From Thermococcus radiotolerans (GTDB taxonomy: Archaea > Methanobacteriota_B > Thermococci > Thermococcales > Thermococcaceae): DNA of 64,000 nucleotides. Below the pieces are notes generated by a model that did no database searches, had not been told where the DNA came from, and saw nothing but the letters and a program-made list of their open reading frames with translations. Positions within the stretch are counted from its first letter, which is position 1. Each line of letters begins with the position of its first letter. This document shows, one piece after another, positions 1,384-31,975 of the stretch. The position numbers were made by a program, and so were the translations under genes. The stretch spans positions 434,001-498,000 of the forward strand of contig NZ_CP015106.1 of assembly GCF_002214565.1 (NCBI RefSeq). Reading direction: 5' to 3'.

Positions 1384-2481
1384 GTGTTGGATGGCATTCA
1401 TGCGTTGGTGCTTACCGAGGCCGCAATGGTCCTGATAGCGGACCTAATGGCCGCAGGATGGATATTCCGCATATACCTTCGTAATCGGAGAAGATCAGCC
1501 CTGGCCTTCTCGTTGGCGTGGATATTTGATTTCCTGGCTATTCTCTCCACAACCCTTACAAACCCCACAATTCAGATGATCGGTATACTCCTGCTGCCGG
1601 CGTTCTCTGCCTTACTCTTCTACGGTGCTGTGAGGTTCCTTGAGGAGGAGTCCATCACCGTCAGGTACAGAACTCTGGCCGTACTGGCGGTAATGCCAGT
1701 GGCGTTTATGGTATACATGGTTGGGGTGTATCTCTACACCGGAGACGCTGTGTGGACCATAACGAGCGCCGCCACCCTTGGAATAACGGGCGTGTTCGTC
1801 ATAGCGGGAGGGCTCCTGTTGAGGGAGACCGAGGAGATTTACAAGAGCGCCGTTAAATACCTCTACATCAGCATAATTCTCTTTGGGCTGCACCTGATTC
1901 CCGCCGCGCTCTTTGGAATCGAGGAGTGGTACAAGGCCGTTGGTTTCACGCTCTCCACGATACTGATAGTGAGCATGGTAGTGGCCATGGTAAAGCTCAC
2001 ATCCTCGGAGTCATTCACGCCGCGGAGGGAAAGGGTTACTGCTCCCGTCGATCTGAAGCCGGGAGTCGTTATAGTCAACGGAAAGGAATATCAGAAGCTC
2101 AAGGAGAAGCTCAAGGACAGGCCGGTTCTGGCCTTCGTCAGGGACGTTACCCAGGTTCCGGATGGCTGGCAGTACTACTTCGTCACGACGATACCGTTCC
2201 AGGGGAGGTTCAAGAACACCATAAACCCGACAAACCTCGCCAGAATGACCGAGCTGTCGTACAAGTATCTGGAGGAGTTCGCCAGAATGGGCGACCACGG
2301 AATAATAGTCATCGACTGCCTCGAGTACCTCACCGTCTACAACTCCTGGGAGAGCCTCATGAAGTTCCTGTCGAAGCTCAGGGACTTTGTGATAATCAAC
2401 AGGGGCACCTTGATACTCGTCATCGAGAAGGAGAGCCTTGAGAGCAGGCTCTACGCCCAGCTCAGGAAGCTCATGGAGTGA
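1384..2481 (+). CDS. Membrane protein with C-terminal DUF835 domain
   Basis: A 365-residue protein with about six or seven hydrophobic helices in residues 5-210 and a soluble C-terminal part (about 225-365) that matches the archaeal DUF835 pattern: a Walker-B-like strand HGIIVIDCLEYL near residue 320, then a 'NSWESLMKFL' helix. Family knowledge: DUF835 domains occur mainly in Archaea, often joined to membrane sensors; the function is unknown. Starts with GTG whose ribosome binding site GGGGTGA overlaps the stop of the upstream adenylating enzyme, so the two are translationally coupled. A signalling or regulatory role is only inference. Confidence 0.65.
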   Translation: MLDGIHALVLTEAAMVLIADLMAAGWIFRIYLRNRRRSALAFSLAWIFDFLAILSTTLTNPTIQMIGILLLPAFSALLFYGAVRFLEEESITVRYRTLAVLAVMPVAFMVYMVGVYLYTGDAVWTITSAATLGITGVFVIAGGLLLRETEEIYKSAVKYLYISIILFGLHLIPAALFGIEEWYKAVGFTLSTILIVSMVVAMVKLTSSESFTPRRERVTAPVDLKPGVVIVNGKEYQKLKEKLKDRPVLAFVRDVTQVPDGWQYYFVTTIPFQGRFKNTINPTNLARMTELSYKYLEEFARMGDHGIIVIDCLEYLTVYNSWESLMKFLSKLRDFVIINRGTLILVIEKESLESRLYAQLRKLME

Positions 2482-2486
2482 GACAG

Positions 2487-2497
2487 CTTTATATACC
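2487..2497 (+). promoter_or_regulatory. Strong TATA promoter of the H/ACA guide RNA
   Basis: CTTTATATACC just after the stop of the DUF835 gene. The centre lies 26 bases ahead of 2518, the first base of the first RNA stem, the standard archaeal spacing. The 20 bases between are AT-rich and contain no ribosome binding site, consistent with a promoter for a non-coding RNA. Confidence 0.7.
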
Positions 2498-2515
2498 TCT
2501 TCTTTTAACTTTAAA

Positions 2516-2732
2516 ATGCCCCTGCGCGAGGACCCCGGGGAGAATGAACCGGGGGGCGATGCGGGGGCTACAGCTCGGCCTCAGCGAGGTCCCCGCGGGA
2601 GGGCCTTCCGCGTTACGGAGCACGATGGCCGCGGGAAACCCAGGCCGAGCACAGTCCAGGCCCGCCTGGGTTAACCCGCCTGAGTTCGCCGTTAGGCACC
2701 GATGGGGGCGGGTGTTACGGGCGGGCCATAGA
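2516..2732 (+). ncRNA. Three-hairpin H/ACA guide RNA (rRNA pseudouridylation)
   Basis: Three consecutive hairpins, each with a lower stem, an internal pocket, an upper stem and an ANA box. I: lower stem 2518-2522/2564-2568, upper stem CCCCGG/CCGGGG 2533-2538/2549-2554, ACA 2570. II: GCTCGGCC/GGCCGAGC 2573-2580/2643-2650, upper stem 2592-2598/2629-2635, ACA 2651. III: GGCCCGCC/GGCGGGCC 2659-2666/2720-2727, upper stem 2674-2680/2706-2713, AUA 2728. The distance from the pocket top to the ANA box is 15, 15 and 14 bases, the 14-16 rule of H/ACA RNAs. GA-containing internal loops above stems II and III resemble L7Ae kink-turns. Guides of II fit UGGGUU-UA-GACC and guides of III fit CGUAAC-UA-UAAC, both conserved 23S rRNA segments recalled from memory. 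The target of I was not found. Pyrococcus is known to have a three-hairpin H/ACA RNA. Confidence 0.8.
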
Positions 2733-2820
2733 CGCTTCGCCGAAACATTTTCAACGATGCCCTCTGGTGTGTTGAAAAAGTTTATTAAGTGCTAGATGAA
2801 AGAGTCACACGGAGGAGACC

Positions 2821-3036
2821 ATGAGGATTGCGGGCAAAAACAAGTGGGAGATTCTTCTGAAGTACTATCCCCCCTGGCAGGGATACCCACCCAAGAAGAG
2901 AAGAGAGAGGAAAACGACGGAAGTCATTGAGGTATTTGAGATGTTGGGCGACCCACGGAAGCTCAGGGACATACCCGAGGACGTCCGCGCCATCCTGAAG
3001 TTCATCAGGCTGGAGTCTTTTCTCCAGGAGGCTTAG
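2821..3036 (+). CDS. Small conserved-looking protein of unknown function
   Basis: A 71-residue, highly basic N-terminal half (KKRRERK near residue 25) followed by an acidic helical half. I do not recognise the family. It is likely real: a perfect GGAGGA lies four bases before the ATG, a TATA-like TTTATTAAG sits at 2781-2788 about 35 bases upstream, and the stop is directly followed by the convergent moeA stop. No membrane segment, cysteine pair or known motif is visible. The location next to moeA may be chance, since it is on the other strand. Confidence 0.65.
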   Translation: MRIAGKNKWEILLKYYPPWQGYPPKKRRERKTTEVIEVFEMLGDPRKLRDIPEDVRAILKFIRLESFLQEA

Positions 3037-31076: not shown

Positions 31077-31975
31077 GTTGCAATAAGACTCTAGGAGAAT
31101 TGAAAGCAGGCTCCGAAGCCTGACCGAGGCGCCAGGTCACCACGTTGCAATAAGACTCTAGGAGAATTGAAAGAAGAAGATCAACGTGGTCTACGATCCG
31201 TCGTTCTACAGTTGCAATAAGACTCTAGGAGAATTGAAAGCTATCGTATCGTGTCTAACAGGGGCGTATTCGTGCGCGTTGCAATAAGACTCTAGGAGAA
31301 TTGAAAGCCGAACTTTGCCCCTCCTCGGGAGCCTCACACGGCCGTTGCAATAAGACTCTAGGAGAATTGAAAGCGGTTAAATGGGCGAAAGCGGATAAAA
31401 GGGACGTTGGTGTTGCAATAAGACTCTAGGAGAATTGAAAGTCGTCGTTTACCCGGCGATAAAGTGAGAGGTGGGTTAAGTTGCAATAAGACTCTAGGAG
31501 AATTGAAAGTACGTGCCAAAGCTCGAAAAGCCCAAGTGGCCAAGGGTTGCAATAAGACTCTAGGAGAATTGAAAGATATTTCCATGCCTTTATTTGGGCG
31601 TCCATACTCGTTGCAATAAGACTTTAGGAGAATTGAAAGGGACAGGAGGTGCTCAGGGAAACGGCGTTCGAAATCGTTGCAATAAGACTTTAGGAGAATT
31701 GAAAGAGATCGAACCGGAGGAGATTCTGAATCTCATCGAGGAGTTGCAATAAGACTTTAGGAGAATTGAAAGCGAAGAACATCCCCTCGTCAAAGTCTCC
31801 CTGCTGTCCGTTGCAATAAGACTTTAGGAGAATTGAAAGTGGGATGTGAATGAGCCTGTTTGATGAGACCCTGACGAGTTGCAATAAGACTTCAAGAGAA
31901 TTGAAAGAATTTCGACTTTTTCATGGCTATGGCTGAGGACCCGGTGTTGCAATAAGACTCCAGAAGAATTAAGAG
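31077..31975 (+). CRISPR. CRISPR array, 14 repeats and 13 spacers, no adjacent cas genes
   Basis: The 30-base repeat begins GTTGCAATAAGAC and ends ATTGAAAG, the 8-base crRNA tag known in Pyrococcus/Thermococcus. Repeats start at 31077, 31144, 31211, 31278, 31344, 31412, 31480, 31546, 31610, 31676, 31743, 31810, 31878 and 31946. Spacers are 34-38 bases. Repeats 1-8 read ACTCTAGG, repeats 9-12 read ACTTTAGG, repeat 13 reads ACTTCAAG and repeat 14 is degenerate at its 3' end (AATTAAGAG), so the old end is on the right. No cas gene lies in the window; processing must rely on Cas6 and effectors encoded elsewhere. Confidence 0.98.

Follow-up and report, generated by a model that had tools for sequence, protein, structure and literature searches.

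The closest described counterparts of the RNA analyzed here are the HgcG RNA Pab40 of P. abyssi, Pf7 of P. furiosus and Tko1 of T. kodakarensis. According to PMC2584109, Pf7 consists of three hairpin motifs, each of which guides one modification, and the target of motif 3 is the equivalent of E. coli position 1915 in helix 69. For P. abyssi, PMC4652768 lists the 23S pseudouridine targets L2588 (Pab40.1), L1932 (Pab40.2) and L2016 (Pab40.3), describes a Pab40 transcript mapped by RNA-seq, with its start at the first H/ACA position, and mentions a Pab40.2 guide strand of 23 nt. The modification of sites 2588, 1932 and 2016 has been shown in vitro for P. abyssi. In T. kodakarensis, seven H/ACA RNAs were detected (PMC4247193), and pseudouridine 2592, which needs Cbf5, Nop10 and Gar1, was assigned to the Pab40 homolog Tko1 (PMC6138745), while transcripts of both HgcG and HgcF were seen in T. 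onnurineus (PMC5316973). HgcF (Pab35), which also has three motifs according to PMC4652768, and HgcE (Pab105), which has two, belong to the same class and use the same machinery, but their guides are not those of HgcG. Homologs of hairpin 2 and/or hairpin 3 are the haloarchaeal HP1/HP2, A. fulgidus Afu4 and the M. jannaschii L2015 guide, which, according to PMC2584109 and PMC4652768, direct modification at the position corresponding to E. coli 1915 (and 2586).

The window, that is, the whole stretch of DNA that was analyzed, comprises 64,000 nt of the Thermococcus radiotolerans genome (NZ_CP015106.1, positions 434,001 to 498,000). The initial annotation, made by reading the raw sequence, had proposed three consecutive H/ACA hairpins at 2516-2732, and these were found at 2518-2730 on the forward strand, with ACA, ACA and AUA as their ANA boxes. 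It had also suggested the Rfam Hgc families as a check, and the covariance model of RF00064 (HgcG, Pab40) matched at 2461-2735 (+) with 216.5 bits (E 9.7e-62; gathering score 77) over its full length, model positions 1-276 of 276. The match starts at 2461, ahead of the RNA, because the first approximately 57 positions of the model represent upstream DNA and not RNA. Hence, it is virtually certain that the sequence at 2518-2730 (+) is the Thermococcus ortholog of HgcG/Pab40/Pf7, a three-hairpin box H/ACA guide RNA. It shares with Pab40, Pf7 and Tko1 the order of the hairpins, the ANA boxes, the spacing and the guide nucleotides, and the 23S target sites are conserved as well, while the closing pairs of the stems and the apical parts are not alike. 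The element, its three-hairpin architecture, its targets and its protein partners have already been published, and the locus adds a further ortholog to a guide RNA family that is already known.

The distribution of HgcG was examined at two levels. Using blastn, it was found in 37 of 37 genomes of the same genus, and the covariance model detected it in 91 of 115 genomes at the level of the class, including all the genomes of the genus that were searched; 88 of the 91 matches exceeded the RF00064 gathering score. Five other genera of the family carry HgcG at similar scores. In one relative the match lies exactly at the published P. abyssi coordinates 382332-382604 (PMC4652768), and this genome was therefore taken as P. 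abyssi. Weak second matches in some Thermococcus genomes were considered as a possible HgcG paralog, and the two that were examined proved to be HgcE. Two class relatives outside the family (L088 and L089) have a diverged HgcG-like RNA, in which hairpins resembling 1 and 3 are kept, while the pocket sequences of the middle hairpin are not those of hairpin 2; possibly, one guide has been swapped there within a three-guide RNA. Another class relative (L090) has a sub-threshold match of 35.3 bits, the first hairpin of which keeps AGCGAGGA, and the 3′ arm of this hairpin, GCAAG, is more fully complementary to CUUGC, the sequence that flanks the pocket-1 target.

Each of the three hairpins consists of a lower stem of 8-9 bp, a pocket, an upper stem and an ANA box located 14-15 nt from the top of the pocket. 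The individual distances are 14, 14-15 and 14 nt for hairpins 1, 2 and 3, which agrees with the 14-15 bases given in the initial annotation. Hairpin 1 (2518-2572, +) is formed on the lower stem 2518-2525/2561-2568, exposes the guides GCGAGG (2526-2531) and GCGAU (2556-2560), carries a K-loop on top and has its ACA box at 2570-2572. Hairpin 2 (2573-2653, +; ACA at 2651-2653) has the lower stem 2573-2581/2642-2650 and the upper stem 2592-2598/2629-2635, between which lie the 5′ guide arm CAGCGAGGUC (2582-2591) and the 3′ guide arm AACCC (2637-2641), and its upper stem is followed by the kink-turn G.A pairs at 2599-2600/2627-2628. Hairpin 3 (2659-2730, +; AUA at 2728-2730) also contains a kink-turn, and in it the guides GGGUUA (2668-2673) and GUUAC (2714-2718) are placed between the lower stem 2659-2667/2719-2727 and the upper stem 2674-2681/2706-2713. 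The folding free-energy z-score was -3.57, with one of 200 shuffles as stable as the native sequence. Most of the 85 HgcG sequences compared have, in each of their three hairpins, columns with the G.A/A.G pairs characteristic of the K-turn or K-loop. In the RNA described here, the usual G.A beside the upper stem is replaced by G.G at 2599/2628 in hairpin 2 and at 2682/2705 in hairpin 3; G.G occupies this position in 13-14 of the 85 sequences in each of these two hairpins. This second kink-turn pair is different than in Pab40, Pf7 and Tko1, and so is hairpin 1, which has three stacked G.A-type pairs, while its 5′ arm is two nucleotides shorter than in Pyrococcus.

The conservation of the fold was analyzed with 85 distinct HgcG sequences. 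The initial annotation had named compensatory changes of the stems in relatives as the test of its guide-RNA reading, and the data showed two-sided changes in both the upper and the lower stems of all three hairpins. In the upper stems, such changes affected 6 of 7 pairs in hairpin 1, 4 of 7 in hairpin 2 and 7 of 8 in hairpin 3; because the 85 sequences are related to each other, the cell counts behind these numbers do not represent independent events. Even so, the variety of pair types, for example C-G, G-C, A-U and U-A at 2536/2551, requires that several events took place despite the kinship of the sequences. The lower stem of hairpin 1 was paired in 100% of cases, and shifting the partners by one column lowered the pairing to about 41-66%. 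The pockets behave differently than the stems, as almost every guide nucleotide in the three pockets is constant; GCGAGG, AGCGAGGUC, AACCC and GUUA, for instance, are invariant in 85 of 85 sequences. The guides of hairpin 1 are invariant except for position 2560 (81/85), and those of hairpin 3 except for two positions, which deviate in one and two of the 85 sequences.

The same comparison bears on the structure of hairpin 2, for which Rfam gives two small stems. Across the 85 sequences these stems were 80.7% and 72.3% paired, and no two-sided change was found in them, while the upper stem 2592-2598/2629-2635, which is followed by the kink-turn G.A pairs, was 99.2% paired. Hence, the covariation strongly supports the canonical upper stem with the kink-turn as the conserved fold predicted for hairpin 2, and it does not support the Rfam fold. 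The 23-nt guide strand of Pab40.2 mentioned in PMC4652768 would likewise suggest an arrangement other than this canonical one.

The promoter and the neighboring genes were also compared with what had been proposed. The predicted TATA box of the RNA gene, TTTATATA, is located at 2488-2495 (+), 26-29 nt ahead of hairpin 1, which is the position expected for such a box in archaea and in keeping with the 26 bases noted initially. Almost all relatives likewise have a TATA-like box, at -27 to -30 relative to the first stem, although the sequence of their spacer is variable. The RNA had been placed between a DUF835 gene and moeA. These flanking genes are as named, with the DUF835 gene upstream (1384-2481) and moeA as a convergent gene downstream, but a 71-codon frame (2821-3036), which has no Pfam match, separates the RNA from moeA; among the 29 other HgcG loci compared, only 5 keep this frame, with 60-99% identity. 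Elsewhere in the window, at 31077-31907, there is a CRISPR array of 13 repeats with a match to Rfam CRISPR-DR6.

The presence of a 105-codon open frame over the RNA (2478-2795) could suggest that the stretch is a protein gene, or else a structured untranslated region or a terminator, rather than a guide RNA. This frame had already been called false in the initial annotation, and that judgment is borne out, because a Pfam search of the frame gave no match, and in the closest relative, in which the RNA region is 95% identical, the frame is interrupted by three in-frame stops, as it also is by stops in many others; the stops in relatives indicate that it is not coding. The pattern of an intrinsic terminator was looked for at the stretch, and none was found. 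The invariant pockets, the covarying stems and the covariance match refute all three of these explanations, to which we assign a negligible probability. For the comparison of the targets, 23S rRNA genes were located using RF02541 for the genome itself and RF02540 for the relatives, and full-length genes were obtained from both. The sites L2588, L1932 and L2016 correspond to U2591, U1936 and U2020 of T. radiotolerans, once the numbering of the P. abyssi 23S copy is shifted by the same 26 positions throughout. Both 23S and 16S rRNA were then scanned blind, and each guide was compared with 300 shuffled guides. For pocket 1, U2591 ranked first, with a score reached by 1 of 300 shuffled guides. For pocket 3, U2020 ranked first, with 11 of 11 guide-target pairs and a score reached by 0 of 300.

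The published target of pocket 2, U1936, ranked seventh; the 3′ arm is paired in 5 of 5 positions, while the 5′ arm fits poorly. With the covariation-backed fold, the best rRNA site for this pocket is U2681, where 6 + 4 pairs immediately flank the U-N step, and this uridine was placed at the equivalent of E. coli 2586. The better fit of pocket 2 to U2681 than to the published target is a minor point and not a discovery, since guiding of the E. coli 2586 equivalent by Pab40 was raised in 2008 (PMC2584109). It could be proposed on this basis that hairpins 1 and 3 alone guide as published, while the canonical hairpin 2 guides U2681 rather than, or besides, U1936. The ranking of the two sites in the covariation-backed fold speaks for this explanation, as does the pseudouridine that, according to the same paper, haloarchaea have at the E. 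coli 2586 equivalent, with their HP1 described as a homolog of Pf7 stem II. On the other hand, the score of U2681 was matched by 17 of 300 shuffled guides, PMC2584109 describes P. abyssi, the guides of which are nearly identical, as lacking this pseudouridine, and the target listed for Pab40.2 in PMC4652768 is L1932. Taken together, we consider this explanation improbable.

In hairpin 2, the 5′ arm, which is invariant, contains CAGCGAGGU (2582-2590). All nine nucleotides are complementary to 23S 2592-2600, adjoining U2591, and the arm has GCGAGG in common with the guide of hairpin 1 (2526-2531). The sharing of GCGAGG and the 9-nt match may reflect a duplication of hairpins, or the RNA may contact this rRNA site twice. 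A composite arrangement, in which the Thermococcus hairpin 2 in its canonical fold acts on U2681 with or instead of U1936 while its 5′ arm also contacts 23S 2592-2600, seems doubtful to us. The match of CAGCGAGGU to 23S 2592-2600 was also considered as a guide for the orphan pseudouridine 2585/2589, and this was rejected because the other arm does not provide the required flank pairing; the 9-nt match is further weakened by other chance matches of 9-11 nt in the G+C-rich RNA.

Returning to the reading of the locus as an HgcG ortholog, the RNA would be transcribed from its own TATA promoter, and each hairpin would bind Cbf5, Nop10 and Gar1, as well as L7Ae via the kink-turn or the kink-loop. 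The unpaired pocket would pair with the 23S rRNA sequences flanking a uridine, and this uridine would be converted into pseudouridine by Cbf5. Two features speak against this reading, namely the poor fit of the 5′ arm of pocket 2 to U1936 and the G.G pairs in the kink-turns of hairpins 2 and 3. We infer that the expression of the RNA, the binding of the proteins and the three modifications also take place in T. radiotolerans. The reading of raw sequence alone can thus find a real non-coding RNA with the right strand, boundaries and mechanism. For this RNA family, the corrected fold of hairpin 2 matters to the prediction of targets and to those who use the Rfam structure.
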